Source: a virus
Direction: 5' to 3' (one strand)
Virus record (IMG/VR): IMGVR_UViG_3300032180_000025
Coordinates: 1 to 34,156 of that record
Length of the DNA: 34,156 nt
Numbering within the stretch: the first letter of the stretch is position 1; each line of letters begins with the position of its first letter. The translations under genes and the position numbers were made by a program. The notes beneath the pieces were generated by a model. That model worked only from the letters and a program-made list of their open reading frames with translations. It was not told where the DNA came from and did no database searches. Below are positions 5,085 to 28,651 of the stretch, one piece after another.

Positions 5085-6485
5085 CTACGTCCACCCACCC
5101 GAGGGTGGACGCTTTGGGGCATTATGTCGAGTCTTGACAAGCCGCGCAAGAACGGTCCCGGAATGCCCCAGGACGGCGTATTGGAAGGCATCCGAGATAT
5201 CGCTCCATGGATGAGTCTTTTCAGGCGTCGGCTGCAGGATGCCGTCCTTGCGCCTCCCATAGCGGTATTTCGAGCTGATCGACTTGATGAGCATCTCACA
5301 TGCCGGGTCGATCAGCAGCGCTGCCTCGCCGCCGCGTTGCTGCAGGAACCATTTCTCGACCGCGCGCAACCTGGGCTCGATCAGGTTCGTCTGCGCAGGC
5401 TGAGCGGAGAACCCGAGGCGCTTCAATGCCGCGAATACGGACTCTTCACCGATCTGTCCCCGAGCGACACCGGATGGATCGCCTACCACTCCGACAGGCA
5501 GACGCATGTATTTGGTCTGTGACAGCAATGGTCGGAGCTTCGTCGCTACGAACTGCTCGATACCCATGTTGTCGCCAACTGCTTCGTCGAGAGCGATCAG
5601 CCGGCCGCGCTGGTCCATCTGGGTCACAACAGCGGCAGGGTGCCGGCCGAAGTCAACCCCGATGATCAGCATGGTACCGGGTATCGGTTGCAACGACGCG
5701 GCGGCGACGTGGAAGTGCTTCTTGAAACTCGCCCGGAAGACTGCCTCACCGGACAGCGATGGCGCGATGATGTTGTCTATGTACTGCTCGACCCACACGG
5801 CCGAGTTATTCTCGATCAGCTCTTCGTAGTACCCGGCAACCAGATTCTCTTTGTTCTCTGCGTGGGCCTCGCGAGCGCCCGGCTGTACGAAGTAGCCCCA
5901 GGACTTCGGGAGCGGTTTGCCATCAAGCTCCTTGTCTTCGAGGACTTTATTCCAGTCCGAGTCTTCGTCAAACGAGTTGGTCTCGCCGATCACGCCGCGC
6001 CATGTCGGTCCGCCGTGCATCTTCGAGGGAAACCGGCCGCAGCGACCGAACACGTCCTGAAGAATTTTCACCGGCAGCTCGCGCAGCTCGGACAGCCATG
6101 CGTAAGTCAGATCGAGCGACAAAAGACGTTGAATGTTGTCCGGGGTATCGAGTGGCATCAGGATCCACTCGGCCTCGATATCGCCCTGTCTGATCCAGAC
6201 GGTATGGTTCTGGGCTTCCCATTCAACAATAGGGCCGATCATCTCCCGGATCGTCTTCAGCGATGTCGTCTTGAGCTGAGGCATCGTATTACGGACGATG
6301 ACGCCGCGCGTGCGCCTGATCCCATCCCTTGGATCAGGGGTCTGTTGCGCAGCGCGGCGCATCAGTTCCATAACCATGGCAGATGACTTGCCTGAGCCGA
6401 CCGGGCCGCGCACGATACGGATGCGCTGGTCCGATTCCATGAACCGTCTGATCGTAGGTGGGGGCGTGTATATCAGCTCAGCCAT
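5085..6485 (-). CDS. terL: Terminase large subunit (packaging ATPase and nuclease)
   Basis: A 466-residue motor that would pump DNA into the procapsid through the portal and cut the concatemer. Walker A is GPVGSGKS (residues 27-34). A Walker-B-like hydrophobic strand ending in acidic residues (LTYAWLSELREL) follows near residue 130. The C-terminal RNase H-like nuclease starts at LIIGVDFGRHPAA (about 273-285) with a second acidic site at VVGDPSG. The gene precedes the portal, separated by 38 bases. Its ATG overlaps the end of the upstream small gene by eight bases. Confidence 0.93.
   Translation of the reverse strand: MAELIYTPPPTIRRFMESDQRIRIVRGPVGSGKSSAMVMELMRRAAQQTPDPRDGIRRTRGVIVRNTMPQLKTTSLKTIREMIGPIVEWEAQNHTVWIRQGDIEAEWILMPLDTPDNIQRLLSLDLTYAWLSELRELPVKILQDVFGRCGRFPSKMHGGPTWRGVIGETNSFDEDSDWNKVLEDKELDGKPLPKSWGYFVQPGAREAHAENKENLVAGYYEELIENNSAVWVEQYIDNIIAPSLSGEAVFRASFKKHFHVAAASLQPIPGTMLIIGVDFGRHPAAVVTQMDQRGRLIALDEAVGDNMGIEQFVATKLRPLLSQTKYMRLPVGVVGDPSGVARGQIGEESVFAALKRLGFSAQPAQTNLIEPRLRAVEKWFLQQRGGEAALLIDPACEMLIKSISSKYRYGRRKDGILQPTPEKTHPWSDISDAFQYAVLGHSGTVLARLVKTRHNAPKRPPSGGWT
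5089..5110. other. 8-bp perfect inverted repeat at the terminase 3' end
   Basis: GTCCACCC (5089-5096) and GGGTGGAC (5103-5110) pair around a 6-base loop. The repeat covers the last codons of the terminase gene and ends two bases before its stop. There is no T-run, so it resembles an mRNA-stabilising or RNase III-type hairpin between terminase and portal more than an intrinsic terminator. Confidence 0.35.
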
Positions 6486-6744
6486 GGTACTGACCCATGA
6501 ACTCAGCGACTTCTTCCCATGTCTCGATGCTGGCGCCGAAGTCTATCTTGACAGCGTCGCCTTTCTCGTTGATCACATCGTAGCCGTTATGTACGACCCG
6601 GGCAGTGCATTTCCACTTCTCCAGTGCTGCCAGGATGCGCGGATTCTGTGGAAGTCCCACAACATCTTTCGGGCGCACGGGCCAGTGAACTCCGCCTGGA
6701 GTCTCGAAGCTGCCCGACCGGTGAACGTAGAAATCTGTGGCCAT
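6478..6744 (-). CDS. Small protein, probable LHSL-family member, before terminase
   Basis: Eighty-eight residues. The middle helix NPRILAALEKWKCTARVV is followed by beta-type sequence (NGYDVINEKGDAVKIDFG) and a Trp-led C-terminal helix (IETWEEVAEFMGQ), the three-part plan of the small paralogues found elsewhere in the window. It is a divergent member because LHSL itself is absent. It lies alone immediately upstream of the large terminase, overlapping its start. Function unknown. Confidence 0.65.
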   Translation of the reverse strand: MATDFYVHRSGSFETPGGVHWPVRPKDVVGLPQNPRILAALEKWKCTARVVHNGYDVINEKGDAVKIDFGASIETWEEVAEFMGQYHG

Positions 6745-8242: not shown

Positions 8243-8438
8243 CGGCCTTCTCGCACTTCGAGCACCGGCGGCGCGTGATCTTGTCAGTGAACCCGGCCTT
8301 GCGCCATTTTGTCGTGATCACAGCACTACATCCGGTCTTGTCACCCTCAACAGGGTTGTACCGACTTTTGTAGATACGGTGCAGAAGACGATTCCCGGTG
8401 GGAGGTACCACGTAAATGAACCGGCGAACCTTGCTCAC
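8232..8438 (-). CDS. Small basic protein with C-terminal CxxC
   Basis: Sixty-eight residues, strongly basic, with an aromatic N-terminal strand (VRRFIYVVPP) and CSKC near the end. A further Cys at mid-length could complete a metal site but only three Cys are present. It overlaps the upstream gene by four bases and the downstream one by 11, as is usual in this operon. Function unknown. Confidence 0.55.
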   Translation of the reverse strand: MSKVRRFIYVVPPTGNRLLHRIYKSRYNPVEGDKTGCSAVITTKWRKAGFTDKITRRRCSKCEKADVR

Positions 8439-8665
8439 TTTGTCATCTCCTTCACGGCCTTGTCGTCGCTCAGCACCTTGGGGCCTTCTCTCAACACAAA
8501 CTCCCGGCAGGCTTCGCGGATCAGCTCCGAGTACGTCGTCCCGCGCGCAAGAGCCAGCCGCTTCATCGCCGCGAGAACCTTCGCGTTGAAGTAGATGTTG
8601 ATCTTGTCGTTGCCTGCCGACGCGCGGGTCATCGTTTTTATTTTGTCCGCATACTGTAGAGACAT
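8435..8665 (-). CDS. Ribbon-helix-helix (CopG/Arc-type) DNA-binding protein
   Basis: The conserved part is INIYFNAKVLAAMKRLALARG followed by TTYSELIREACREFVLRE, a clear strand-helix-helix pattern with the family's small size. RHH dimers insert the strand pair in the major groove and usually repress their own promoter. Possible starts are TTG 8692, ATG 8665 and ATG 8632. A promoter-like TTGACT-N17-TATTAT covers 8664-8692, and if that is the promoter, ATG 8632 (65 residues) is the true start. A 14-bp string in this promoter recurs between the two arms, so this protein may control both. Confidence 0.75.
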   Translation of the reverse strand: MSLQYADKIKTMTRASAGNDKINIYFNAKVLAAMKRLALARGTTYSELIREACREFVLREGPKVLSDDKAVKEMTK

Positions 8666-8692: not shown

Positions 8693-9015
8693 GCGGGCGT
8701 ATACTGCCCGGAATTCACGAGATATTGAAAATCAGCGGCTGCTGCCAGGATCGCGCGCCAGTGTCCCTCAGGGTCATCCTTGTCGATCGGATCGTTGATC
8801 GGGATCTCAACGCGCTTGCCAGGAGTTCTGCACGGCATCACAAGTATCCAGCAGACAGGATCATCGGGCCGCAATACGTCGGCGTAAGGCTTAGGTGCGA
8901 ATCTCACCTCTGCGAATGCAAACAGATCATGCAGGCATTCGGGTATGCCGAGAGACTTATACAGGCTCCGGTCTTTGTTAGGATCAGTCGCACTCGCGAA
9001 GTCAGGGAGTGCCAT
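8689..9015 (-). CDS. LHSL-family small protein (leftward arm)
   Basis: A 108-residue member with a longer N-terminus. The family helix is GIPECLHDLFAFAEVRF (residues 23-39), the middle carries strands (CWILVMPCRTPG, then RVEIPI), and the C-terminal Trp helix is EGHWRAILAAAADFQYLV. No catalytic residues are apparent. The ATG at 9015 overlaps the end of the upstream gene by 14 bases. Confidence 0.65.
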   Translation of the reverse strand: MALPDFASATDPNKDRSLYKSLGIPECLHDLFAFAEVRFAPKPYADVLRPDDPVCWILVMPCRTPGKRVEIPINDPIDKDDPEGHWRAILAAAADFQYLVNSGQYTPA

Positions 9016-9319
9016 TGGCCATCTCCGAGATCACTCTCATCCATATCTGGAGTTTGTCCGCGTCGCGGGCCATGATCTGCCAGCGCCTGGGCGGCTGCGG
9101 CTCGTCGCCTTCGAGCGTTCTGCCTGCTGCTATAAGATAGTCGCCGAACCGGGTCACGAAGAACACGCCCAGAGCAGCTGACCATTCGACATGAATCTCA
9201 GCGGGTACCATACTCCAGTAAGCTTTTACATCGTCAGGCGGAAACGGCTTTCCGTACAACGACGCTCCGGCCATATAAGGCTGTGTGACATAGTCCGCTG
9301 ATACCAACCTGACACTCAT
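9002..9319 (-). CDS. LHSL-family small protein (leftward arm), divergent
   Basis: 105 residues. PPDDVKAYWSMVPAEIHVEW takes the place of the family's first helix. GVFFVTRFGDYLIAAGR is the beta part and DKLQIWMRVISEMANG is the C-terminal Trp helix. The middle is extended by a Pro/Arg-rich loop (DEPQPPRRW). Without the neighbouring members it would not be recognised. Confidence 0.6.
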   Translation of the reverse strand: MSVRLVSADYVTQPYMAGASLYGKPFPPDDVKAYWSMVPAEIHVEWSAALGVFFVTRFGDYLIAAGRTLEGDEPQPPRRWQIMARDADKLQIWMRVISEMANGTP

Positions 9320-9534
9320 AATCCTCGTACCAGATTTTCAACAACTTTGACCCAATCCTCGTACTGAGTTGACTGTATGACAATCACATAGTCTGAATCG
9401 GCAGCTGCCCACAATTTCCATGCATGCCCCGGGCGACCGTAGACATACTCCCACTTGATGTCGCAAAGCCCGCACAGGGCGCGCAGCTCTTCAGGAGGTC
9501 GCACATCCCCGTCACTGTACAGGTTTCGGTACAT
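9316..9534 (-). CDS. LHSL-family small protein (leftward arm)
   Basis: Seventy-two residues. PPEELRALCGLCDIKWEYV (13-31) is the first helix and strand, AWKLWAAADSDYVIVIQS the middle sheet, and YEDWVKVVENLVRGL the C-terminal helix. Three Trp in the core positions match its neighbours. It overlaps the next gene's start (ATGA type). Confidence 0.65.
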   Translation of the reverse strand: MYRNLYSDGDVRPPEELRALCGLCDIKWEYVYGRPGHAWKLWAAADSDYVIVIQSTQYEDWVKVVENLVRGL

Positions 9535-9540
9535 GTCAGA

Positions 9541-9789
9541 TTACTTCCAGGGAGCTATCCAGTGGTCTAAAGGAGGGAACTCGCCGTAAGCGTACATAAC
9601 AACCTGTCGCCAGTACTCCGTCGAGAGGATGTCCCCATCATGCAGGTACAGTACCCAGTCGATATCGCCTATCCGCAGAAACGGGCACAGAGACCCGGCC
9701 GGAGTGCGCCGGAACTCTATGCCCGCGATGTGAAGAAACGCCCGGAGTTCGTCGCTTATGATCTCGCAGAAATCCGAGCGTACGTTCAC
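9541..9789 (-). CDS. LHSL-family small protein (leftward arm)
   Basis: Eighty-two residues from a GTG at 9789 that overlaps the previous stop (GTGA). ISDELRAFLHIAGIEFRR is the first helix, DIDWVLYLHDGDIL the sheet, and TEYWRQVVMYAYGE the Trp helix. After that an extra Pro-rich tail (FPPLDHWIAPWK) is present, unlike most members. Confidence 0.65.
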   Translation of the reverse strand: MNVRSDFCEIISDELRAFLHIAGIEFRRTPAGSLCPFLRIGDIDWVLYLHDGDILSTEYWRQVVMYAYGEFPPLDHWIAPWK

Positions 9790-9978: not shown

Positions 9979-10200
9979 TTACCACAGAGGTTGTGGCGTG
10001 TCGGATAGTAGCCGCTTTATCGCTTCCCGCCAAGTCTTCACATCGTAGCCCTGGACAGTGCATTGCCTATCAACCATCCCTGCGGCGGTGACTGTGTATA
10101 TCCAGTGAAAAGTGCCGAACTGTGCCAGCTCACATTTCACGCCAAACACATGACATGTAGCAATGCACTCATCGCGCTTGGCTTCCAACAGTTTGCTCAT
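9979..10200 (-). CDS. LHSL-family small protein (leftward arm)
   Basis: Seventy-three residues. LLEAKRDECIATCHVFGVK is the first helix, with CHVFGVK in the place of LHSLxA. FHWIYTVTAAG and RQCTVQGY are strands, and DVKTWREAIKRLLSD is one of the clearest C-terminal Trp helices of the set. Four Cys are present but they are not spaced as a zinc site. Confidence 0.7.
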   Translation of the reverse strand: MSKLLEAKRDECIATCHVFGVKCELAQFGTFHWIYTVTAAGMVDRQCTVQGYDVKTWREAIKRLLSDTPQPLW

Positions 10201-10445
10201 CAGAACTTCTTTTCCAGCAGATCCTTGTAGTGCCGCAGCTCATCGACCGTCATACCGGCGTCGCGGGCAATCTGCTCTTCTTCGCGCAGCAACGCATTGA
10301 TCTGCGCTGCACGCTCTTCGTAGCGCAGACGGTCTTCGGGATCTCCAGGCAGCTCGAAGTCATCAGGGAGTTTCAAGAGTTTGCCTTCTTCAGTCGGTCC
10401 GCGACGCCCGTCAAGGTCGATTACAGGTAGCTTAGGGAGTGTCAT
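10200..10445 (-). CDS. Small acidic helical protein of unknown function
   Basis: Eighty-one residues from ATG 10445, with GGAG four bases upstream. The frame stays open further upstream, but that part is out of character. Residues 30-81 are charged helix (EDRLRYEERAAQINALLREE, then VDELRHYKDLLEKKF). It is not an LHSL member. Sharing base 10200 with the next gene (ATGA) shows it is part of the operon. Confidence 0.6.
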   Translation of the reverse strand: MTLPKLPVIDLDGRRGPTEEGKLLKLPDDFELPGDPEDRLRYEERAAQINALLREEEQIARDAGMTVDELRHYKDLLEKKF

Positions 10446-10710
10446 ACGGCTCCAGTTCCCAGTCGTTCCTGATCCAGCAAAGAATGCGCGAACCGCGCGC
10501 CAGTACGCCCGGATTGATGAGAACACTGACTTTCGTTGATCCCTGTGTGCCACCATCGGGTCTCCTGCGAAACAGCTGGACCTGTCCATTACCAAACAGA
10601 GCTTTGTAGGAATGCAGTGCCGCGAAGTTCTTCCAGACTTGGCGGGCCTCTCTGCGACGATCGCGGTTGCGGGAACGGCGGCGGCCGGCTTTTGATTTGT
10701 GCCTATGCAT
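10432..10710 (-). CDS. LHSL-family small protein with Arg-rich N-terminus
   Basis: Ninety-two residues. The first 24 are extremely basic (RRRSRNRDRRREAR), then VWKNFAALHSYKALFG gives the family helix with the LHS core, followed by strands (QVQLFRRRP, KVSVLINPG) and an atypical end (RILCWIRNDWELEP) instead of the usual Trp helix. The basic leader suggests nucleic acid binding. Confidence 0.65.
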   Translation of the reverse strand: MHRHKSKAGRRRSRNRDRRREARQVWKNFAALHSYKALFGNGQVQLFRRRPDGGTQGSTKVSVLINPGVLARGSRILCWIRNDWELEPYDTP

Positions 10711-10918
10711 GGATCAGTTTCTGTATGGCCAACGTCCACATCTCCGGACTGTCCAGAGATACCTGAGCAGAGCCCCAGACCAGCTTGCCTGCTTTCTGTC
10801 GGCATTTCAGCGTCGCGTACTGCCCGCGTCTGGAGTATTCAACATCCAGACTGTGCAACGCCGCCAGATTTCTCAAGGCGGCGAGCTGTTGTTTTGTTTT
10901 AAGGGAGACGCGGGGCAT
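10703..10918 (-). CDS. LHSL-family small protein, near-consensus
   Basis: Seventy-one residues from ATG 10918. LAALRNLAALHSLDVEY is close to the rightward-arm consensus, which links the two arms. YATLKCRQKAGKLVWGS is the sheet and SPEMWTLAIQKLIHA the C-terminal helix. The frame is open upstream, but the upstream part overlaps the previous gene and is not needed. Confidence 0.7.
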   Translation of the reverse strand: MPRVSLKTKQQLAALRNLAALHSLDVEYSRRGQYATLKCRQKAGKLVWGSAQVSLDSPEMWTLAIQKLIHA

Positions 10919-11111
10919 CACGGCTTTCCACCAGATAACGGGCTGCGCGGGCGAAGCGGGCGTAGTCCGCGCTGGCGCGCAATATAACACCCTCTCCAGA
11001 GTCTTCTTTATAGAACACACCCCAACGGCCTGAGCGCAAGACGGCCGCTTCCAGATCAGCGAGTTTCAGCATCTCAAGGACACCGTCAGGGAGTTTTGCA
11101 AGATCGGACAT
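10899..11111 (-). CDS. LHSL-family small protein (leftward arm)
   Basis: Seventy residues. LPDGVLEMLKLADLEAAVL keeps the LPxxV start of the family, RWGVFYKEDSGEGVILRA is the sheet, and DYARFARAARYLVE the C-terminal helix, with Phe in place of Trp. It overlaps the next gene by 20 bases. Confidence 0.7.
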   Translation of the reverse strand: MSDLAKLPDGVLEMLKLADLEAAVLRSGRWGVFYKEDSGEGVILRASADYARFARAARYLVESRDAPRLP

Positions 11112-11120
11112 CAGAAGATC

Positions 11121-11366
11121 CTACACCGATGCATGCCCAAGACACTGATACCGACGCGCCTTTTTCAGCAGATCACTGATCGCTCTTCTCCATGCCCGCT
11201 CTCTCAGACTCCTGATATAGGCCCAGTAGTATTCTTTATCGCTCGGGTGGTAGTCGATCCTGAACACTCGGTCGAACCCCGAAACTCCCATTTCGATTTT
11301 CATCCCGTCAAACAGCGACACCAGCGCTTTGCGCTCTTCGTACAGAGTCTGTCGTAGATCCGGCAT
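11121..11366 (-). CDS. First gene of the leftward operon, divergent LHSL-family member
   Basis: Eighty-one residues. YEERKALVSLFDGMKIEMG fills the first helix, RVFRIDYHPSDKEYYWAYI the sheet, and ERAWRRAISDLLKKARRY the Trp helix, which is strongly basic. A promoter -10 element ends only seven bases upstream of the ATG at 11366, so its mRNA may be leaderless. Confidence 0.65.
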   Translation of the reverse strand: MPDLRQTLYEERKALVSLFDGMKIEMGVSGFDRVFRIDYHPSDKEYYWAYIRSLRERAWRRAISDLLKKARRYQCLGHASV

Positions 11367-12129: not shown

Positions 12130-12651
12130 ATGAAAATCGAAATCCTGACAGTGTCGGCAATCGGTGAAGTGTTGGAAAAGATCGCGACGACAGCGAGAGC
12201 GCTGCAGTCACAGATTCATCAGTGCGCTGTAAGCGCGCTGTCCCACACGTTCGAACACGGTGACTTCCGCAGTGTCACGCGTCTGTTGAATGCGTTGCCG
12301 AACGGGCAGCGTGTGCAGGCGCTGGCAGTGTGGTTCGCTCACTTCTCGAACAACGCGCTGACAATCAAGAAAGCATCTGGCGCGTTCAGTGTTGTGTTGG
12401 ATTCGTCCAAGCTCGGCGACGAGATGCTGCGCATGGAGTTGTTGGATGCCGCGATGGACCAAGACTACGGCACGTTCACGAAGGAGAGCAAACCAACAGC
12501 TCTCACGCTGGAGAAGCTGATCGGTTGGATCGAGAAGCGTGCGACCGCGAATGATGACGAGGTCGAGCCCGCTGCGAAGGCTGTTGCTGCGAAGCTTGTG
12601 GCCAGCTACAAGGCCGAGATCACGAAGTCGATGGAAGCTGTTGCTGCTTAG
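12130..12651 (+). CDS. Early-region helical protein of unknown function
   Basis: 173 residues from ATG 12130, GGAG eight bases upstream; an ATG six bases earlier is too close to the site. The sequence is helical, with SVTRLLNALPNGQRVQALAV (about 46-65), AFSVVLDSSK, and an Ala/Glu/Lys C-terminus. Proteins with this L.ALP...R..AL..WF pattern occur in other phages as uncharacterised early products, from memory and without a named family. It stands alone between two hairpins and is probably a highly expressed monocistronic message. Confidence 0.7.
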   Translation: MKIEILTVSAIGEVLEKIATTARALQSQIHQCAVSALSHTFEHGDFRSVTRLLNALPNGQRVQALAVWFAHFSNNALTIKKASGAFSVVLDSSKLGDEMLRMELLDAAMDQDYGTFTKESKPTALTLEKLIGWIEKRATANDDEVEPAAKAVAAKLVASYKAEITKSMEAVAA

Positions 12652-14274: not shown

Positions 14275-14414
14275 TTATCACGGAAGTCTGGAAAAGCAAC
14301 CGGTCGCGTTGCAGGGGCAGGTTCAACCTGTACTTTTTCTGGATGTATGTTCTGTTCATCCCGGCGCTGTTGGTGTGGGATGCTCTGAACTGGCTGGAGC
14401 GTAAGCTGTCATGA
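14271..14414 (+). CDS. 47-residue membrane peptide
   Basis: It starts at a GTG that overlaps the previous stop (GTGA) and ends overlapping the next ATG (ATGA), so it is translationally coupled on both sides. The N-terminus is basic (WKSNRSRCRGR), followed by one transmembrane helix (LYFFWMYVLFIPALLVW). The positive-inside rule puts the N-terminus in the cytoplasm. Confidence 0.6.
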   Translation: MIITEVWKSNRSRCRGRFNLYFFWMYVLFIPALLVWDALNWLERKLS

Positions 14415-14644
14415 GCACCGGCAGAGTTCCCCACTACGGCAACGTCGATAAAGAAGTGGAGACTCTGCTGGAGCTGTATTCACTGGTGGCGTACACTGAT
14501 CGCGAGAGTGTTCAGGACATATGGGTGATCTTCAGACATCCACTCAAGCCGGGCGCATCAGGACGCTACATCAGATATGAAGCCACGCTTGGAGAGTGGA
14601 TAGCAGCAGTAGAGGTATGCGACCGTGAACTCCCCAGAAGATAG
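14411..14644 (+). CDS. LHSL-family small protein (rightward arm)
   Basis: Seventy-seven residues. VDKEVETLLELYSLVAYT is the N-terminal helix (LYS for LHS), DIWVIFRHPLKPG and GRYIRYEA the strands, and TLGEWIAAVEVCDRE the C-terminal Trp helix. It is the first of a run of family genes and overlaps the next by 20 bases. Confidence 0.75.
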   Translation: MSTGRVPHYGNVDKEVETLLELYSLVAYTDRESVQDIWVIFRHPLKPGASGRYIRYEATLGEWIAAVEVCDRELPRR

Positions 14645-14834
14645 GCTCCCGCAGGCTGTGAAGAATCTGTTGGAACTCAACAGCCTGCAGGCAGTCTGGG
14701 TAACAACACATTGGATCGTGAAACCGGTCGGGGACAGAGAGCCGAATCACGGGCTCTACATCGAGCCCGGTGCGTCGCTTTATATGTGGATAGTCACGGT
14801 GGAGGATGTCAATGAGCGCAGACGCTGGTGGTAA
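14625..14834 (+). CDS. LHSL-family small protein (rightward arm)
   Basis: Sixty-nine residues from a GTG at 14625 with GAGG nine bases upstream. LPQAVKNLLELNSLQAVW is the helix, HWIVKPVGDREPNHGLYI the sheet, and LYMWIVTVEDVNERR the Trp helix. It is closely similar along its length to the next gene (HWxVxPxxxRxxxxGLYxxxGA), so this pair looks like a recent tandem duplication. Confidence 0.78.
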   Translation: MNSPEDRLPQAVKNLLELNSLQAVWVTTHWIVKPVGDREPNHGLYIEPGASLYMWIVTVEDVNERRRWW

Positions 14835-15018
14835 GCTACCTCAGGATGTGGAGAATCTGCTCGCTCTCCATGGCATGGGCGCCCTCTTTTGCAAAACTCA
14901 CTGGTTTGTGCGGCCACGCTCATCCAGAAGTCTCGACCAGGGACTGTACCTCAGGACAGGAGCGCCGCTCGAAGAGTGGATATGGACGGTGGAGAGGGTC
15001 AGTATCCAACAGCGTTGA
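14812..15018 (+). CDS. LHSL-family small protein, near-duplicate of its upstream neighbour
   Basis: Sixty-eight residues from ATG 14812, GGAGG six bases upstream; the ATG at 14806 is too close. LPQDVENLLALHGMGALF, then HWFVRPRSSRSLDQGLYL and PLEEWIWTVERVS. It is followed directly by a structured non-coding stretch. Confidence 0.78.
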   Translation: MSADAGGKLPQDVENLLALHGMGALFCKTHWFVRPRSSRSLDQGLYLRTGAPLEEWIWTVERVSIQQR

Positions 15019-15112
15019 GAGCAAGCCCGGGAAGCCGGATCAGAGGCTGTGTTGGCTCGGTCCGCACTGCGCGGGGTTAGGTTGGCCAACGATACCGGGC
15101 TTGCTCTGAACG
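15013..15112 (+). other. Nested inverted-repeat element A
   Basis: GAGCAAGCCCGG (15019-15030) and CCGGGCTTGCTC (15095-15106) are a perfect 12-bp pair. CGTT (15013-15016) and AACG (15109-15112) extend it with one mismatch between. Inside, GTTGGC (15051-15056) pairs with GCCAAC (15085-15090). The element covers the end of the preceding gene and about 90 bases of non-coding sequence. Its right outer arm overlaps the left arm of element B, so the two structures compete. Confidence 0.6.
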
Positions 15113-15221
15113 TTGATGAAGAGATCCCTGTTGCAACGGACAAAAACAGTCGCGGGAACCGGGGTCACGTGCGGGGACCGGTAAACGGGTCTGCGGTGAT
15201 GGGGATCTCTTCATGAATGTT
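15109..15221 (+). other. Nested inverted-repeat element B
   Basis: AACGTTGATGAAGAGATCCC (15109-15128) pairs with 15202-15221 at 18 of 20 positions, including 13 perfect in a row (15116-15128 with 15202-15214). The 73-base loop is GC-rich and contains ACCGG/CCGGT. It lies directly upstream of the coiled-coil gene's Shine-Dalgarno, so it may act on that gene. Confidence 0.6.
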
Positions 15222-15242
15222 CACAACAGGAGACAAACTGAG

Positions 15243-15618
15243 ATGACAAGCAAATCCCCCAAGCCTATATCAACAGCGCCGACAGTGGATGTCAGCAAGT
15301 TTGCGGTGCCGAACAACGAAGATGTGATCCAACATCTGCGCATGGAGATTGCTGCTTTGAGGCGTGAGAAGTCGATTCTCAGCAGCAATCTGGAAACGAT
15401 GAAGCGGGAGAGCGAGTACGACAGCAAAAGGCTCAAACAGGAGCAGGAGCGCAGTGAAGATCTGCGTAAGTCGCTCGTCCAGGCGAATGTCCAGATGGCC
15501 CGCGCAGCCCGCAGCCCGCGACATGCGCCTGATCGCAGCCCTTGCAGACACGAAATACAGCACCTCTCAGGAGCTGGAGATCGCGCCCGGCGTCCGCATT
15601 CCGACAGCGTTCCGCTGA
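15243..15618 (+). CDS. Coiled-coil protein, apparently with a +1 frame change near 15.51 kb
   Basis: From ATG 15243 (AGGAG upstream) the first 85 residues are a convincing coiled coil (LRMEIAALRREKSILSSNLE, then SKRLKQEQERSEDLRKSLVQ). The frame then becomes Arg/Pro/Ser-rich and runs on through a hairpin and the next gene. The +1 frame gives a protein-like end (MRLIAALADTKYSTSQELEI and on to a stop at 15616-15618). The coordinates given join both frames, about 124 residues. Either the gene uses or suffered a frameshift within repeated GCCCGC motifs, or the second part is a separate short gene. Function unknown. Confidence 0.5.
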
Positions 15619-15713
15619 GTCTTGAACATAACAGCCCGCATAATCTCGTGGCTGATTACAGTACGGCGCTGGTTCTCCAGCGTACTATGCGGGCTGTGAT
15701 CTTGAACACTCAG
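15615..15713 (+). other. Nested inverted-repeat element C
   Basis: CAGCCCGCATA (15632-15642) pairs perfectly with TATGCGGGCTG (15686-15696). CTGAGT (15615-15620) pairs with ACTCAG (15708-15713). A CGCTGG-TTCT-CCAGCG hairpin (15667-15682) sits in the loop. TCTTGAACA is repeated directly in both internal arms (15620, 15700). It spans the whole gap between two genes and ends at the next Shine-Dalgarno. Confidence 0.6.
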
Positions 15714-15724
15714 GAGAATTCAAC

Positions 15725-16033
15725 ATGCCCGACCAAGCGCCACCATGTACGAAGTGCAGCCAGCATCGCGACGCTAGTGTCCATCTCGCGCAGCTCCGTC
15801 AGAATGGATATCACCCTTACGTCGGTGGTTCGACGGTATTTGCTGTTGATATGGGTAGTTTCGTGATCAAGCTCGACAAAGGTGTTCACTGCGAAGACTG
15901 CCAGGACATCGTATATACGGTGACCTACGGCCAGGAGGTGAAGCATAACCTGAGTTACGACAAGGCCGCCCAGAAACTCGGGTATGCCATCATGCACTCC
16001 CTGCAGATTGATGGGTTGCTCGAAGGAGAATAA
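15725..16033 (+). CDS. Small protein with two Cys pairs, putative zinc-binding
   Basis: 102 residues. PPCTKCSQH near the N-terminus and HCEDCQDI near residue 60 give two CxxC knuckles about 45 residues apart, separated by strands (TVFAVDMGSFVIKLD), a treble-clef or ribbon-like layout. The C-terminal half is helical. GGAG precedes the ATG and the next gene follows after two bases. No named family recognised. Confidence 0.65.
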   Translation: MPDQAPPCTKCSQHRDASVHLAQLRQNGYHPYVGGSTVFAVDMGSFVIKLDKGVHCEDCQDIVYTVTYGQEVKHNLSYDKAAQKLGYAIMHSLQIDGLLEGE

Positions 16034-16035
16034 CC

Positions 16036-16248
16036 ATGGATCCACTCGCCTGTCTGAAATCCGCGCTCGAAGCACTCCACAACGGTGAGCCCGCTGAGTG
16101 CATAGCGCACCTGTTTGATTACTACCAGTGGCGCCTGAAGAACGGATTCGAGCCCGTGCTCAACGGGCGTGCTGGTGACATGGTGGCTGCGGATCTCGTG
16201 TCTCAGGCGTTGGACTTCATGGAGCCGGCAGATGACCAGGGTACGTAA
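16036..16248 (+). CDS. Small helical protein of unknown function
   Basis: Seventy residues, nearly all helix (LACLKSALEALHNG, then CIAHLFDYYQWRLKNG, then DLVSQALDFME), with GGAG nine bases before the ATG. It lacks the sheet and Trp helix of the LHSL genes beside it. It overlaps the next gene by 17 bases. Confidence 0.65.
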   Translation: MDPLACLKSALEALHNGEPAECIAHLFDYYQWRLKNGFEPVLNGRAGDMVAADLVSQALDFMEPADDQGT

Positions 16249-16498
16249 TCTCAAACTGCCTCGGACCAAGTTGCCGGAAGCCCTGGCCAATGCTCTGAGG
16301 CTGTACGGATACAACTGGCGCTGCAAACGCTCCCGGGATGAAAAGCTCTGGACGATCTATCCGTATGGGAAGCAACGGAAGTCCGACAAAGTCTGGACGC
16401 TGCACAGCGACGCAGATCCTGCGGGTGTCCTGCACTGGCTGCTCATGCGTGAGCGTGGTACGCCCGTGCGCAGTGATATCCTGTTGGGCAGGAGCTGA
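16232..16498 (+). CDS. LHSL-family small protein, LYG variant
   Basis: Eighty-eight residues from ATG 16232, GGAG seven bases upstream. LPEALANALRLYGYNWRC replaces LHSL by LYGY, a variant shared with the gene at 17232 (NALRLYGMRL). KLWTIYPYGK and KVWTLHS are strands, and the end (PAGVLHWLLMRERG) is the displaced Trp helix. Confidence 0.7.
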   Translation: MTRVRNLKLPRTKLPEALANALRLYGYNWRCKRSRDEKLWTIYPYGKQRKSDKVWTLHSDADPAGVLHWLLMRERGTPVRSDILLGRS

Positions 16499-16500
16499 CC

Positions 16501-16782
16501 ATGAACACGTACTTACCGAATTCTGAGCTGTTGGGTCGCACTGAGACAGTGTCAGAGATAGCGGAGAACATGACACCTGATCAGCGGGCGCAGTTTTTAC
16601 AGCGTATCAAGGCCCTGGATACTCTCCTGACGCTTTTCGGATTGAAGCGTCAGGAGAATGTCTATGCCGGTGGGTTCCTGATATACCACGAATCACGCAG
16701 GAGCATAGCCCGCTGGGTGGAACTGGACTCGACGGAGGAATCATGGCTGGAAGACGTAAAGCGTCTGACCCCCTCGCTGTGA
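16501..16782 (+). CDS. LHSL-family small protein with longer N-terminus
   Basis: Ninety-three residues, GGAG before the ATG. After about 28 extra residues, FLQRIKALDTLLTLFGLKRQ is the helix, AGGFLIYHESRRSIARWVEL the sheet and EESWLEDVKRLTPSL the C-terminal helix. The overlap with the next gene is 40 bases. Confidence 0.68.
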   Translation: MNTYLPNSELLGRTETVSEIAENMTPDQRAQFLQRIKALDTLLTLFGLKRQENVYAGGFLIYHESRRSIARWVELDSTEESWLEDVKRLTPSL

Positions 16783-16994
16783 AACGATTCAGACTCTCCA
16801 GAGCAGTGCGGAACTTCCTGGCACTGCATTCGCTGGAAGCGAATCGCAGACTGCCCAGGTGGCGGAACTTCGAAGACGAGTATAACGTACGTCGCTGCGG
16901 CGGCGAAGCCCGCATTCTGTGCACCATCAAATGCCACGACCCGGACGAGGTCAGCATCCAGCGGATCCGGGACTACATGGCGGTGCTGCGATGA
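16743..16994 (+). CDS. LHSL-family small protein with basic N-terminus
   Basis: Eighty-three residues, GGAGG before the ATG. The basic leader (MAGRRKASD) precedes LSRAVRNFLALHSLEANR. The sheet contains CGGEARILCTIKCH with three Cys, and the end is SIQRIRDYMAVLR, without Trp. Confidence 0.75.
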   Translation: MAGRRKASDPLAVKRFRLSRAVRNFLALHSLEANRRLPRWRNFEDEYNVRRCGGEARILCTIKCHDPDEVSIQRIRDYMAVLR

Positions 16995-17239
16995 GCAGTA
17001 TTCCGCGAAGCCTGCCGAGAGCAGTACGGAGTCTGGTGATGTTGCATTCGTTGAGTGTTGAATCGCGGTACAAGGCAGAGCGGGAACAGCGTAACAAGGG
17101 CATATACGACGTGTTTGTCATGGTACTTCCACGGATAAAGCTCAGGGTATGCATCGCTGTAATTCGTCTTGGAATCGACTCCGAGGCAGCGATGATCGAG
17201 GACATCCTGACAGGCCTGGACGAACACAACAATGAGTAA
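16991..17239 (+). CDS. LHSL-family small protein (rightward arm)
   Basis: Eighty-two residues from ATG 16991, which overlaps the previous stop (ATGA). LPRAVRSLVMLHSLSVES, strands IYDVFVMVLPRIKLRVCIAV, and EAAMIEDILTGLDEH as last helix, with Met where Trp is usual. The frame is open upstream but that part belongs to the previous gene. Confidence 0.75.
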   Translation: MSSIPRSLPRAVRSLVMLHSLSVESRYKAEREQRNKGIYDVFVMVLPRIKLRVCIAVIRLGIDSEAAMIEDILTGLDEHNNE

Positions 17240-17501
17240 TAAACGGCGTCCCTCGCTGGACTGGGCGAGGATCAAGAATGCACTCAGACTATATGGAATG
17301 CGTCTGCACCGGCCGAATCTCTTGGTCAGACGTACAAGGCTGTCGCTCGATTCGCAGGTATGGTATGTAATTATGTGCGCACGCGATGTTCGTGTGCCTA
17401 AGAGCATGGACTCATCGCCGGTACGCTGGTCTACACCGCCCTGTACCGAAGATGTTATAGACGAAATCTTCAGACTGGAGAAGCGCCGTCATGGGAAATA
17501 A
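17232..17501 (+). CDS. LHSL-family small protein, LYG variant
   Basis: Eighty-nine residues. The N-terminus MSNKRRPSLDWARIKNALRL then YGMRLHRP, followed by VWYVIMCARDVRVPK and TEDVIDEIFRLEKRR. It starts with the same M-x-N-K motif as the next two genes, which suggests local duplication. Confidence 0.72.
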   Translation: MSNKRRPSLDWARIKNALRLYGMRLHRPNLLVRRTRLSLDSQVWYVIMCARDVRVPKSMDSSPVRWSTPPCTEDVIDEIFRLEKRRHGK

Positions 17502-17706
17502 GTGTAGTTCTCCGCTGCCCGAGGCAGTTGAAAACCTGTTGGCGCTGCACAGTCTCAGCGTTACCGAACTGTGTGACAACATGGCTTACATGTTCCCGGA
17601 AGCGGAAGGCATCAACAGCTACAGGCGACGCATTGTGCATCTACGGTTTTCCATCCATCAGTGGATGAATGAAATAGACATGTGGGAGCGACTTTATGGG
17701 AAATAA
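17491..17706 (+). CDS. LHSL-family small protein, consensus type
   Basis: Seventy-one residues. LPEAVENLLALHSLSVTE is essentially the family consensus, RRRIVHLRFS the strand and IHQWMNEIDMWERLYG the Trp helix. The start region (MGNK, LPEAV) is nearly the same as that of the next gene at DNA level, pointing to a recent tandem copy. Confidence 0.8.
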   Translation: MGNKCSSPLPEAVENLLALHSLSVTELCDNMAYMFPEAEGINSYRRRIVHLRFSIHQWMNEIDMWERLYGK

Positions 17707-18061
17707 ACGTACGCGTAACCGTATCCCCGCGCTGCCCGAGGCCGTGAAGAACCTGTTGGCATTGCACAGCCTCGAAGCGTGGCCCGCCAAGGAACGCATG
17801 TACAACAGGGGCGCCCTGATATGGGCTTGGAAAGTGATCAACGCTGGAGAAGACCATCTCACGGCCCGCGCCGCGTTCACGATGACCGGCTCGTGTGACC
17901 TCGACAAGTGGATGGCAGCAATCAAGAGGTACACAGAGGGAGATCTCTGGCTGGACTTCGAAACATCCAACCGCTACTGGCAAAGCGCGGACTTCAGTTC
18001 CCACATGATTCAGATTGAGCGCGATCTGGCGATCATCAAAAGACTGACGAAGTTCCCATGA
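17696..18061 (+). CDS. LHSL-family protein with C-terminal extension
   Basis: The longest rightward member, 121 residues. LPEAVKNLLALHSLEAWP is the consensus helix, ALIWAWKVINAG and ARAAFTMTG are strands, and LDKWMAAIKRYTEGD is the Trp helix at about residue 75. A further 40 residues follow (YWQSADFSSHMIQIERDLAI), which could be a fused second element. Confidence 0.8.
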   Translation: MGNKRTRNRIPALPEAVKNLLALHSLEAWPAKERMYNRGALIWAWKVINAGEDHLTARAAFTMTGSCDLDKWMAAIKRYTEGDLWLDFETSNRYWQSADFSSHMIQIERDLAIIKRLTKFP

Positions 18062-18336
18062 ACGATACAGATTCGGATTGCGAGTATCAGATCAAACTGT
18101 TCACAATGCGGGGCGCGTCACGTACTTTCGCCATCGCTGTGACCAACCTGCTGGATCTCTACTCAATGGAGGCATACACAGGCGGGAACGGGATCGGTGG
18201 CTCGGTGTGGCGGGTGCAGTATCAGAAGCACTCGTACAAGCTCCACTACTGCACAGTGCCCGGAGACTGGACCAGCATGCAGGCGTGGATGGCAACCTGC
18301 CGCGAAGTCGAAGCCCGCTACGGACATCTGGACTAG
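18058..18336 (+). CDS. LHSL-family small protein, last of the main run
   Basis: Ninety-two residues. FAIAVTNLLDLYSMEAYT is the helix, GSVWRVQYQKHSYKLHYC the sheet, and SMQAWMATCREVEARYG the C-terminal helix. It starts on the previous stop (ATGA). AGGAG of the next gene overlaps its stop. Confidence 0.75.
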   Translation: MNDTDSDCEYQIKLFTMRGASRTFAIAVTNLLDLYSMEAYTGGNGIGGSVWRVQYQKHSYKLHYCTVPGDWTSMQAWMATCREVEARYGHLD

Positions 18337-18344
18337 GAGATCAT

Positions 18345-18617
18345 ATGCTCGGACAGTATACTGGCCCGCTGATCCCGCGAGAGCCCGACCCGATGAATCC
18401 TCTGCACAAACGCTACCGGCAGTACCGGAACAAGTATGGAGTTCTGGTGCACGATCATAAGGTTACGATCGAGGAAGAGATCGCCGAGATCCGGGCTCGA
18501 CATGCGCTGCGCCGGGAGTACAATCGCGAGACCCGGGCCGCGCGTATGGCCCGCCAGAAGGCGATGACCGATGTCACAGCAGATCATAGCGCGTTGGACG
18601 AATCCGACGCACGATAA
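18345..18617 (+). CDS. Small charged helical protein of unknown function
   Basis: Ninety residues from ATG 18345, AGGAG six bases upstream. A Pro-rich start (GPLIPREPDPMNPLHKR) is followed by a long, highly charged helix (TIEEEIAEIRARHALRREYN, then RETRAARMARQKAM). It could be a coiled-coil adaptor. It overlaps the next gene by 47 bases. Confidence 0.6.
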   Translation: MLGQYTGPLIPREPDPMNPLHKRYRQYRNKYGVLVHDHKVTIEEEIAEIRARHALRREYNRETRAARMARQKAMTDVTADHSALDESDAR

Positions 18618-18885
18618 AGACGGCAACGCGTACAGCGAGGCTGACCACAACGGGTATCTGGTCACCGTGAACGGCGGCGCTCCGATCAAGCTCCCCATGA
18701 CCTGGGGAACAAGCTTCGACCTGGGCACCCTGTCCGAGGTAGACGCGCTCCCGTCCGGAATTCACACAGCGACGATTGCAGTCGTGACCAAGAAAGGAGT
18801 CGCTGGCAAGACCGCCAGCGGGACCTTTTCGGTTCACCCGACGCCGTCCGCTGTCGGCAACTTCACCATCACGACGACAGGGTAA
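18571..18885 (+). CDS. Small all-beta protein, Ig/FN3-like
   Basis: 104 residues with the alternating pattern of an immunoglobulin or fibronectin-III domain: ARWTNPTHDKDGN, GYLVTVNGGAPIKLP, LPSGIHTATIAVVTKKG, GTFSV and NFTITTTG. It is a paralogue of the gene at 29501, with matching W-x-N-x-T, LP(S/A)G-x-HT-x-T and KxGx(V/A) positions. There is no signal peptide, so it is a virion decoration or an intracellular binding module rather than a secreted protein. AAGG lies nine bases before the ATG. Confidence 0.6.
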   Translation: MSQQIIARWTNPTHDKDGNAYSEADHNGYLVTVNGGAPIKLPMTWGTSFDLGTLSEVDALPSGIHTATIAVVTKKGVAGKTASGTFSVHPTPSAVGNFTITTTG

Positions 18886-21042: not shown

Positions 21043-21658
21043 AGGCTTCGAGGTCTCCAAGGAGTGCTTCGAACTGCTGGAGCAGACCCGGTCTGTCAAC
21101 ACAAACAACGAGTTCAAGCGCTGGCTGCACATCTGGATGATGGACAATTCGGATTCCGGCCACGTCTGCCAGCATACTGCGCTGCCATGGATTGTGTTGT
21201 GGGATAAGCCCGATCTGTCTACGATCATGGCGACGTATTTCGTCACAGATTTTGTTAACTTCCCCACATCCTGGGCAACATTGTGGGAAGATATTGATAC
21301 TATGATCGAGTCTCGCCGATGCTCTCCCGACTTTGAGCAACCACCGAAGGTATCCGCTCTTCATGGACCATATTGGATGTTGCTGGAAAAGCCGGGTGTC
21401 GCCCGCTTGGCCGCAGAGACTGCAGCCATGAAGCGTAGAGTAACCGTCGAAATATTCCAGAGATATCCGGAAGCCCGTGCCCCGGAAACAATTTCCTCGC
21501 TCCGGCGCCAGTATTTCAAACATGCGTTGGAGCCGTTCCGAATGATGTCACCCCAACAGGAGTCAGAAGATGAAACTGCTAGAGCTTCAGAAGAGCGCCG
21601 TGGATCTGTACAAGTCAGGAACGGCCTTACACTTGGTCGGCCCCCCAGGTGTCGGTAA
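20918..21658 (+). CDS. Protein of unknown function, real start uncertain
   Basis: The convincing part runs from about 21043 (EGFEVSKECFELLEQTRSVN) to about 21570, with aromatic-rich helices (FKRWLHIWMM, TSWATLWEDIDTMIESR, PYWMLLEKPG). No ATG, GTG or TTG occurs between 20945 and 21137. The upstream starts (ATG 20918, TTG 20942) lie deep in the previous gene, where this frame reads as Ser/Arg-rich shadow. Its 3' end also overlaps the ATPase gene by 89 bases. Either it begins at 20918, or it is reached by a +1 shift from the previous gene. No family recognised. Confidence 0.5.
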   Translation: MSSSVSKTLVPQRTAGQPSSNGSSPTRSRSNRQRGPFPSTVEGFEVSKECFELLEQTRSVNTNNEFKRWLHIWMMDNSDSGHVCQHTALPWIVLWDKPDLSTIMATYFVTDFVNFPTSWATLWEDIDTMIESRRCSPDFEQPPKVSALHGPYWMLLEKPGVARLAAETAAMKRRVTVEIFQRYPEARAPETISSLRRQYFKHALEPFRMMSPQQESEDETARASEERRGSVQVRNGLTLGRPPRCR

Positions 21659-22658
21659 GTCCGACTCGATCAAGTATGACGTACGGGCCGCACTCTCGGC
21701 GGCCTTCGGCGAGGAGTTCGGGTACCATGACGTGTTGCTGCCCACCGTGGATGCTCCGGATATCCGTGGCTTTCTGATTCCCACCAAGGATAAGGAGGGG
21801 CACCCGACCAGCTTCTTCACACGATCGGCGATCCTGCCGTCCCGTGAGTATCTGGCGGCGCACCCGCGCGGTATCATGCTGATGGATGAGCGCAATGCGG
21901 CGGATCTGCTCACGCAGAAGGCTGTCGCGCCCGCCGTGCTGTCGAAGCGCTTCGGGGAAGAATACTTACCCGATGGCTGGTGGATGATCTCCGCGAGCAA
22001 CCGGGTCGAGGACAACTCGGGCGTGATCAAGTCGCCCAAACATCTGGTCAATCGGGAACGTACTCTCAACATCGAGAGCGATGTTCTCAGCTGGTCGATC
22101 TGGGGTGAATCACACGACATCCATCCGATGCTGATCGCGTTCGCGAAGCAACAGCCCGGTGTTGTCTTCACTGAGTCGGTGCCCAAAGGTGAGGGTGCGT
22201 TCTGTACACCGCGTTCGTTCGTATCTGCGGCGAAGCTTCTCGCCCAGGCGGCGGGTGTGGACAACGATGGCAATCCCAACATGGTGATCCCGCAGTCGGG
22301 CATCCTGTCCCAGATGGTAGCCGGCGATATCGGAGAAGGTGCGTGCGCGCAGCTCATGGCCTATCTGAAAGTCGCTGATGATCTGCCCACGATTCAGGAG
22401 ATCCTCGACAAGCCGAAGGACGCGAAGTGTCCGGACTCGCTCTCGGCCGCATACGCTGCAGCGCAGATGTGCCTGCACTATGCGAATCCTACCAACATCG
22501 ACAAGCTCTGGACCTATACAGAGCGCCTCAAGAAGGAGCTGCAGGTATCTGTGGCGAAGCAGCTCGTCGCCAAAGGCGCCGGTGTTCTTCTCAACTCAAA
22601 GGCGTTAGGAGCATGGATCGGCAAGAACCGCACGTTGATCAACGCCAGCAACTTCTAG
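21570..22658 (+). CDS. MoxR-like AAA+ ATPase
   Basis: 362 residues. Walker A GPPGVGKS (24-31), Walker B GIMLMDERN (about 100-108), and a sensor-1-like ISASNRV (about 141-147) are all present. The segment between Walker A and B (VLLPTVDAPDIRGFLIP) matches the MoxR group, in which a hexameric ATPase remodels partner proteins with the help of a VWA-domain protein. That partner lies two genes downstream, with a helical protein between. GGAG lies eight bases before the ATG. A helicase role is less likely because no helicase motifs are present. Confidence 0.82.
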   Translation: MKLLELQKSAVDLYKSGTALHLVGPPGVGKSDSIKYDVRAALSAAFGEEFGYHDVLLPTVDAPDIRGFLIPTKDKEGHPTSFFTRSAILPSREYLAAHPRGIMLMDERNAADLLTQKAVAPAVLSKRFGEEYLPDGWWMISASNRVEDNSGVIKSPKHLVNRERTLNIESDVLSWSIWGESHDIHPMLIAFAKQQPGVVFTESVPKGEGAFCTPRSFVSAAKLLAQAAGVDNDGNPNMVIPQSGILSQMVAGDIGEGACAQLMAYLKVADDLPTIQEILDKPKDAKCPDSLSAAYAAAQMCLHYANPTNIDKLWTYTERLKKELQVSVAKQLVAKGAGVLLNSKALGAWIGKNRTLINASNF

Positions 22659-23864: not shown

Positions 23865-24028
23865 AAATGTCATTCGTGTTCAAGCTCTGGGGGCTGATAA
23901 CCCTGGCAATGCTGAACATGTGTCTGATGTATATACTCCGGCTGGTCGGGCTACGGAAGCTGTCAGGCTCAGTAGCTCGGCAGACAGCATGTCTCTGTTC
24001 TTACATAAGTGAGCAAAATCATGGCTGA
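23861..24028 (+). CDS. 55-residue membrane peptide in the MoxR module
   Basis: It starts on the previous stop (ATGA) and runs eight bases into the next gene. One transmembrane helix (FVFKLWGLITLAMLNMCLMY) is followed by a basic linker (RLVGLRKLSGSVARQ) and two Cys. Its presence between the helical protein and the VWA protein suggests that the module may act at the membrane. Confidence 0.55.
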   Translation: MKMSFVFKLWGLITLAMLNMCLMYILRLVGLRKLSGSVARQTACLCSYISEQNHG

Positions 24029-25208
24029 GCGTTCCGCAGAATTGGTCGAGGCAGTCTCGGCAACCCTGGTCCAGCAGCCGTTCTTCGCGGTGCTGATGTG
24101 CGATATGTTGACGATCGAAGAATCCGAATCGATCGTGACAGATCCGAACCGTCCCAACCCCACAGCGTACACCGATGGGACCCGGCTCGTGTTCAATCCG
24201 AAGTTTCTCAAGAAGCTCACCGTCAAGGAGCGCATCTACGTGATCGCCCATGAGGTGTGTCACGTGATTTTCCAGCATCCCCAGCGGATGCGGATGTACG
24301 CGGACCTGGGCTACGGACCTGACCTGAATGACTTCAAGCCGGGCAAGTTCAACCGGGCAGCGGACTACATCATCAATGCCTACCTGAACGAGCTGAAGGT
24401 CGGCGACCAGCCTATGGACACCCTGCTCAACGGACAGATCAGCTCGGCTGATCTCGTAGACGAGGTCTACCTGAAGCTCCCCGACGAGCCCGAGGACAAG
24501 AACAACGGTTGGGATCACCATGAAGTGGCTGCGGATCCGAGCAAGCTGCCCGATAAGGGGACAATCCAGCGGGCAGTGGCTGCGGCGGCCGCCGCGCAGA
24601 AAGCCTCAGGAAGGATGCCAGCGGGCCTCCAGAGACTGGTCGATGAGATCCTTGAGCCGCAGGTGAACTGGGCGCAGCATCTGCGGTCTGCTATCGTGAC
24701 GTTCGCAGGTAACAACGAGCAGACATGGTGCCGTCCGAACCGGCGCCGCATCGCAGTGGCTCCTCACGTGTACATGCCAGGACGGGCTGGGACGCGCTCT
24801 GAGGCGGTCTCCCTGGAGATCGACACTTCGGGCTCGATCTCTGACCACGAGCTGAATGTATTCCTCTCAGAGGCTCATGGGATCATGAGCGACGTGCAGC
24901 CCGAGAAGATCTACGCCGGCTATGTGGACTCGGCTCTGTTCAATGACGAGATCCACGAGATCGACGACGTGAACGGGGTGCTGGATCTGAAGTCCAAAGC
25001 GGGCGGCGGCGGCGGTACCGACATGACCATCATGCATCAGGAGCTGGTCAAGCGCGGGATCACCGTGGCCTACGAGATCATCCTCACGGATGGTGTGTGC
25101 AACTTCGGAACAGATACGGGAGTACCCACGATATGGTGCATAACCTCAGAAGGTATCACGGCCCCGTGGGGCGTCTCGGTCCACGTGAAAATACCCGAGC
25201 GGAAGTGA
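24021..25208 (+). CDS. Metallopeptidase-like protein with C-terminal VWA domain
   Basis: 395 residues from ATG 24021; GTG 24009 is an alternative. The N-terminal part has HEVCHVIFQH (about 77-86), a HExxH zinc site inside a helix preceded by KERIYVIA. The C-terminal VWA domain has the MIDAS motif DTSGS (about 268-272), a GGGGGTDMT segment (about 328-336) supplying the MIDAS Thr, and LTDGVCNFG (about 355). This is the DUF2201-type layout whose genes sit next to MoxR ATPases. Peptidase activity is plausible because the site is intact, but it is not proven for this family. Confidence 0.8.
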   Translation: MAERSAELVEAVSATLVQQPFFAVLMCDMLTIEESESIVTDPNRPNPTAYTDGTRLVFNPKFLKKLTVKERIYVIAHEVCHVIFQHPQRMRMYADLGYGPDLNDFKPGKFNRAADYIINAYLNELKVGDQPMDTLLNGQISSADLVDEVYLKLPDEPEDKNNGWDHHEVAADPSKLPDKGTIQRAVAAAAAAQKASGRMPAGLQRLVDEILEPQVNWAQHLRSAIVTFAGNNEQTWCRPNRRRIAVAPHVYMPGRAGTRSEAVSLEIDTSGSISDHELNVFLSEAHGIMSDVQPEKIYAGYVDSALFNDEIHEIDDVNGVLDLKSKAGGGGGTDMTIMHQELVKRGITVAYEIILTDGVCNFGTDTGVPTIWCITSEGITAPWGVSVHVKIPERK

Positions 25209-28281: not shown

Positions 28282-28418
28282 TCGAACTAACCAAGTGGCT
28301 CTGTCAGTTCTTCTTCGACAACTACGTGCATTGGGCTGGGCTTGTGATTCTGTGCATCGCCATCTTCCCCGTATGGAGCTTCAAAGGTCGCACGATCATC
28401 CGCAGGGATGACGAATGA
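28278..28418 (+). CDS. 46-residue membrane peptide
   Basis: It starts on the polymerase stop (ATGA) and ends on the next start. One transmembrane helix (WAGLVILCIAIFPVWSF) with a basic, acid-ended tail (KGRTIIRRDDE). This is one of four or five such short membrane peptides in the arm. Confidence 0.6.
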   Translation: MIELTKWLCQFFFDNYVHWAGLVILCIAIFPVWSFKGRTIIRRDDE

Positions 28419-28651
28419 GCGATCTGTCAATTCATCACACCGGGAATCTGCCCTGGTTGGCGGAGGACATCCGCGCAATCGTCAATATGGCTCCTCCTGA
28501 CATCAGTGTTGCCCAGACAGACATGGGGTCCTACAGAATCACCCGGCGGTATACCAGTCAAAGAGGCTTCGTCGAGGCTGTTCGATTCCTGAACAAAGCT
28601 GCTCCTCCAGAAATGTGGCTGGAAGCCTTCGCGGATCTATACCATGACTAA
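28415..28651 (+). CDS. LHSL-type small protein, divergent, after the polymerase
   Basis: Seventy-eight residues. LAEDIRAIVNMAPPDISVAQ is the first helix and strand, GSYRITRRYTSQRGFVEAVR the middle, and PEMWLEAFADLYHD the Trp helix. The layout is as in the leftward-arm members, with NMAPPDI replacing LHSLxA. It overlaps the nuclease gene by eight bases. Confidence 0.6.
   Translation: MSDLSIHHTGNLPWLAEDIRAIVNMAPPDISVAQTDMGSYRITRRYTSQRGFVEAVRFLNKAAPPEMWLEAFADLYHD

Follow-up and report, generated by a model that had tools for sequence, protein, structure and literature searches.

Why would a single phage carry a long series of small, mostly overlapping genes that read as versions of one protein? 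The question is raised by IMG/VR record IMGVR_UViG_3300032180_000025, which we analysed over its entire 34,156 bases (the window) and which, by its large genes, is a podovirus-type phage of bacteria. Its gene directions diverge in a zone at ∼11.4–13.6 kb, the terminase, portal and head genes reading leftward and the replication genes rightward. An earlier note, working from an alignment made by eye, had placed ten or eleven paralogues at 14.4–18.3 kb on the rightward arm. The profile searches and the tree presented here show, at the level of sequence comparison, that these genes belong to a lineage-specific expansion of a family of small single-domain proteins, spread across both divergent arms, with about 18–20 copies in the window. 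Judged from direct searches, which gave no homologue in cultured phage records, the protein family is new.

The genes of the right arm are given below with their lengths in amino acids (aa). Expectation values (E) are from leave-one-out profile searches unless stated otherwise, and X is an orthologue group found throughout the clade of relatives.

14411–14644, plus strand: family member A, 77 aa (E 2e-6)
14625–14834, plus strand: family member B, 69 aa, the copy nearest to clade-wide group X (E 3e-6; phmmer to the X gene of the relative L060, E 5.7e-5)
14806–15018, plus strand: family member C, 70 aa, modelled with AlphaFold2 (E 1e-5)
16232–16498, plus strand: probable member D, 88 aa (hhalign P 0.005, full length)
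16501–16782, plus strand: probable member E, 93 aa (hhalign P 0.025)
16743–16994, plus strand: family member F, 83 aa (E 6e-5)
16991–17239, plus strand: family member G, 82 aa, the least strong of the secure set (E 0.0017)
17232–17501, plus strand: possible member H, 89 aa (weak, hhalign P 0.072)
17491–17706, plus strand: family member I, 71 aa (E 6e-7)
17696–18061, plus strand: family member J, 121 aa, with an additional C-terminal segment (E 1e-8)
18058–18336, plus strand: family member K, 92 aa (E 1e-4)

We graded eight of these eleven genes as secure (14411, 14625, 14806, 16743, 16991, 17491, 17696 and 18058). The ten or eleven paralogues of the earlier note thus hold for these eight and, on sequence grounds, probably for 16232 and 16501, whereas 17232 is a weak candidate. 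All genes lie at the positions given in that note. The overlaps of 4–40 bases described there are general, except that 16498 and 16501 are separated by a gap of 2 bases and that a 1-kb stretch of other genes interrupts the set between 15018 and 16036.

The alignment by eye proved right. Each leave-one-out profile was trained on the seven remaining secure genes of the right arm (on six for B and for C, which were omitted together), and in eight of eight runs the omitted member was recovered straight after the training set, with E from 1e-8 to 1.7e-3 among 517 open reading frames (ORFs) of the window. In the shuffled control for the full profile, the best of 10,340 ORFs (20 databases) had an E of 0.063. 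Ranks 9–20 held nine ORFs from the two small-gene arrays, for which 12 candidates were available among 509 (hypergeometric P 8e-15, on a candidate list compiled by hand). The common ancestry of the right-arm eight is, as far as such profiles tell, certain, and the family extends to the left arm.

We searched iteratively through 675 small proteins, taken from the window and from its relatives; the search converged at 35 proteins, all of the near clade, with nothing scoring between 4e-9 and 0.04. The members therefore find each other by profile, 11 window proteins being in the converged set: the secure right-arm eight, 10703, 10899 and 6478. The seed profile (A3) consisted of X proteins without those of a second clade-wide group, Y, which entered unaided during the iteration. 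Contigs fetched later and lying outside the training set were also matched, G037 at 1.8e-11 and L132 and L126 at 1e-10 to 4e-4. In single-sequence hhalign comparisons, where 200 unrelated small proteins gave a background 1% quantile of P 0.026, eight genes (9316, 16232, 28415, 11121, 6478, 9979, 9002 and 16501) outranked every protein of Pseudomonas phage KPP25 and of the Rhizobium phage; 6478, which the hhalign profile did not include, acts as a check.

The set is therefore not limited to the rightward arm, where the earlier note had placed it. Genes 10703 and 10899 lie in the same expansion, 6478 belongs to a sister group, and more candidates were observed leftward and at 28415:

10703–10918, minus strand: left-arm member La, 71 aa, NLAALHSL motif (among the top non-training ORFs in every leave-one-out run; iterative search; window branch of the tree)
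10899–11111, minus strand: left-arm member Lc, 70 aa (E 8e-4 with J omitted; iterative search; window branch of the tree)
10432–10710, minus strand: likely member Lb, a possibly degraded copy of 92 aa with the motif NFAALHS (E 0.007 in the run lacking B and C)
9316–9534, minus strand: probable member Lg, 72 aa (hhalign P 0.002, full length)
11121–11366, minus strand: probable member Ld, 81 aa, the first gene of the left arm (hhalign P 0.01)
9979–10200, minus strand: probable member Le, 73 aa (hhalign P 0.014)
9002–9319, minus strand: probable member Lh, 105 aa (hhalign P 0.019)
9541–9789, minus strand: possible member Lf, 82 aa (hhalign P 0.041)
6478–6744, minus strand: left-arm member Lj, 88 aa, orthologue of clade-wide group Y, modelled with AlphaFold2 (Y profile E 1e-11; iterative search)
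28415–28651, plus strand: probable distant member, 78 aa, downstream of the DNA polymerase (hhalign P 0.005)
8435–8632, minus strand: Arc-like ribbon-helix-helix gene, a non-member given for context (phrog_2639 E 5e-7; synteny, lying between X and Y in relatives)

We count three secure copies on the left arm (10703, 10899 and 6478) and four further probable ones (9316, 11121, 9979 and 9002). Lb had no hhalign support despite its motif, and it contains a 21-nt inverted repeat, 90% complementary, to the helix-1 code of gene F. The gene at 28415–28651, alpha-beta3-alpha-like and two genes past the DNA polymerase, has a similar small counterpart in the Rhizobium phage (L014 22121–22414) that may, from position and sequence, be its orthologue.

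A portal search led to a closer clade made up wholly of uncultured podoviruses (58–95% identity). In eight of its members (G017, G021, G015, G028, L041, L060, G037 and L132) the gene order is the same, namely X, the Arc-like gene, Y, a putative small terminase, the large terminase and the portal. The X and Y genes of these phages are true homologues of the window family: 14625 matched X directly, the best null score being 0.013, and X and Y matched each other with an E of 0.005. Unlike the window family, they are single copy each on the terminase-side arm and show no large expansion, and the X proteins carry a long low-complexity N-terminal tail. With one fixed profile, relatives hold 1–2 copies, all on the terminase-side arm; G017 possibly has 6 when divergent candidates are counted, L132 has one right-arm copy, and the right arms of G017, G021 and G037 are without the array. 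The tree was built on a 52-column domain, a length at which the inner forks are unreadable. Ten window copies from both arms fell on one branch (support 91/85; in 88% of bootstrap trees) and 6478 grouped with Y (97/99). As the ten copies share one branch, the array is an expansion within the lineage of the window.

Other features of the same regions were observed in the clade. Simple-repeat reading frames (MALAMA..., MATATA...), possibly length-variable, occupy similar places on the right arm in L077 (11908–12174) and L126 (5690–5896). A left-arm gene of L066 (15900–16826; contig G028 55900–56826) encodes a protein of 308 aa in which a WLYSPHDK segment is duplicated and YGHGVVHPQQAAQLGVAGM forms three repeats; the gene may hold a family-like domain. 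The inter-arm gene at 12130–12648 is clade-conserved and belongs to phrog_1448, a phrog without assigned function; it is a useful anchor for locating both arms.

Next, we examined the fold. The AlphaFold2 model of 14806, made with 18 sequences, had a predicted local distance difference test score (pLDDT) of 82 and a predicted template modelling score of 0.64, with a helix at 13–21, strands at 24–29, 32–37 and 47–50, and a helix at 55–69. The model of 6478 with group Y had modest confidence (pLDDT 66) and the same element order, so that two members are predicted to share a helix-strand-strand-strand-helix fold. The earlier description of a helix, a beta-rich middle and a last helix with Trp stands for the Trp, which is present in 27 of the 35 family members across phages, while the middle is more exactly three strands in the model. 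The proposed common fold agrees with both models.

The absence of a described family was borne out as well. The members matched no Pfam, PHROG, PADLOC or PDB sequence family and no enzyme family, and the phage collection contained no relatives at the DNA level. Searching phages by tblastn with J and with an X protein gave nothing credible, viral-contig scans with J and C gave no match, and the family profile found nothing in KPP25-like and Rhizobium phages. A codon-pattern search for NLLALHSL in viral contigs returned 16 matches, none in a homologous context, one of them a chance match in a type III methyltransferase. The bacterial genome collection gave no match to the X alignment or the portal, and therefore neither a prophage nor a clue to the host.

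How the copies have diverged bears on their function. The pairs 14625/14806 and 17491/17696, which had been taken for recent duplicates, have synonymous divergences (dS) of 1.2 and 1.24, and are old, because synonymous sites are saturated or nearly so at such values. Pairwise identity among window copies was 0.47 in helix 1 and the turn versus 0.12–0.19 in the later segments, whereas orthologous X proteins of different phages were more even (0.60 in helix 1 versus 0.29–0.48). In the codons of the helix-1 motif, the proportion of nonsynonymous differences (pN) was 0.14–0.33 and that of synonymous differences (pS) 0.50–0.74. Since pN stays below pS where synonymous sites are near saturation, helix 1 is held by protein-level selection and the remainder is freed. 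We ruled out gene conversion of the conserved helix, as synonymous sites there differ widely. Diversifying selection in the strict sense, one of two forces suggested for the array, was not borne out, the crude ratio of nonsynonymous to synonymous divergence (dN/dS) being 0.5–0.6 and unreliable at dS >1. The other, dosage selection, is unlikely: outside helix 1, 80–90% of positions differ between copies.

Our tentative reading is that the proteins are binding modules rather than enzymes, with helix 1 constant and the body variable, and that each probably has a different partner; we put this at somewhat below an even chance. Binding is preferred to catalysis because the members match no enzyme family, have no conserved polar site and vary in charge and loops. 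Helix 1 is conserved and hydrophobic on almost all sides (ALLIM in relatives, NLLAL in the window), which points to a shared contact, whereas the divergence of the remainders points to different partners. Helix 1 would make the common contact, by self- or cross-dimerisation or by docking onto one shared partner, and the strands, loops and helix 2, variable in length and charge, would recognise distinct partners. These would most likely be host or defence proteins encountered in takeover, because the accessory array sits at the divergent start of both arms; a role as inhibitors of such proteins is plausible. Genes would have been duplicated and then have changed partners, while purifying selection would have maintained the fold and helix 1. 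A more specific version, a constant-plus-variable toolkit in which helix 1 dimerises among copies or docks on one phage or host hub and the variable parts yield a combinatorial set of binders, is doubtful.

Several observations weigh against binding to diverse partners. Positive selection is not indicated by the crude dN/dS, and helix-1 identity could partly reflect easier alignment there. The X/Y order beside the terminase genes clade-wide fits a housekeeping role, in packaging, late expression or the virion, at least as well as an anti-defence one, and the 1–2 copies held in conserved order by the Arc-like and terminase genes clade-wide argue against inhibition as the ancestral role. The proteins might instead be accessories of morphogenesis, packaging or late regulation, X and Y serving the terminase or virion ancestrally and the expansion consisting of variants thereof. 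The eight relatives with one X-to-portal order and the position of 6478 beside a terminase gene of the window favour this, but the majority of secure window copies lie on the opposite arm, upstream of replication genes, and such a role leaves twenty divergent copies unexplained; we consider it unlikely. Selfish or neutral accumulation, that is tandem duplication in a tolerant accessory region followed by drift and decay, with most copies having no special function, would account for the weak coding scores of several copies, the possibly degraded 10432 and the great divergence. However, the reading frames of all secure copies are intact, the genes overlap within their array, and purifying selection acts on helix 1 despite near-saturated synonymous sites, so that this explanation is very improbable.

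The members might also bind nucleic acids through a fold like that of HicA or the double-stranded RNA-binding domain (dsRBD), for example as RNA-binding regulators or as HicA relatives minus the catalytic residue. The element order is that of dsRBD and HicA, three HicA structures superposed on the 14806 model among small-domain Foldseek results (3.4–4.0 Å, template modelling score (TM) 0.38–0.50, E >1), some members are strongly basic, with a predicted isoelectric point (pI) >10 (16232, 16743, 17232, 10432 and 10703), and the Arc-like gene adjoins the X gene in relatives. On the other hand, Foldseek gave no significant match to the PDB for 14806 (best E 0.7) and none of note for 6478. The HicA model PF07927 found nothing in the window at E 10, with control matches in 13 of 14 genomes, and the HicA and dsRBD Pfam models found none of 18 members at E 10. 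The catalytic His of HicA sits at the start of strand 2; only 14625, 14806 and some of the X proteins have it, and elsewhere it is replaced by other residues or a gap. From the model search and this residue pattern, we rejected membership in HicA. No HicB partner was recognised by a HicB model run on part of the genes, the Arc-like gene alone standing near X genes. Half of the members are acidic, no polar residue is conserved across the family, and the conserved basic RNA-binding residues of dsRBDs are not shared by proteins whose pI spans 4.8 to 11.7. We therefore give nucleic-acid binding a low probability.

The rest of the window offers some context. The large genes recognised were the large terminase, portal, family A DNA polymerase, MoxR-type ATPase, DUF2201 VWA metallopeptidase-like protein and exonuclease. 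The DNA polymerase is ∼33–35% identical to those of KPP25 and Rhizobium phage RHph_TM3_14A; against further viral contigs, its identity reaches 41%. The MoxR-type ATPase and DUF2201 genes are paired (21570–22658 and 24009–25208), and the pair is retained close to the polymerase in the near clade and in RHph_TM3_14A. By eye, we also called two small Ig/Fn3-like proteins (18571–18885 and 29501–29830), copies of which are dispersed over both arms of relatives (e.g. L127 7804–8115). A promoter scan of the window was uninformative (6 sites versus 4.9 expected), and Rfam and tRNA searches gave no match.

The largest reserve of unexplained proteins lies in small phage genes, most of which are solitary, so that comparison cannot reveal their function. 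Here a single genome holds about twenty natural variants of the same fold and relatives have single-copy orthologues, which makes it testable which parts are constant and which diversified. If the copies do inhibit different targets, the fold would be a small scaffold that evolution has varied many times.

Finally, we compared the family with known systems. HicA and dsRBD proteins (PF07927; PDB 5yrz, 6g26 and 6hpb) are alike in element order over ∼60 residues, the superposition being loose, but the window family differs in lacking a sequence match, a significant fold score and a conserved catalytic His, and in being often acidic. Among viral models (BFVD), three small uncharacterised phage proteins (A0A6J5R0U4, A0A1V0DYB4 and A0A2U7NBJ7) resemble it with TM 0.58–0.64 over 61–64 columns, but at E >0.1 and only 11–16% identity, and their functions are likewise unassigned. 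Phages carry arrays of takeover or anti-defence genes that are small, divergent, overlapping and accessory and lie in one operon. Such arrays are thus already known; what is unusual here is that a single family fills the array. Members of the known arrays are usually mutually unrelated, whereas the array of the window is one expanded family.

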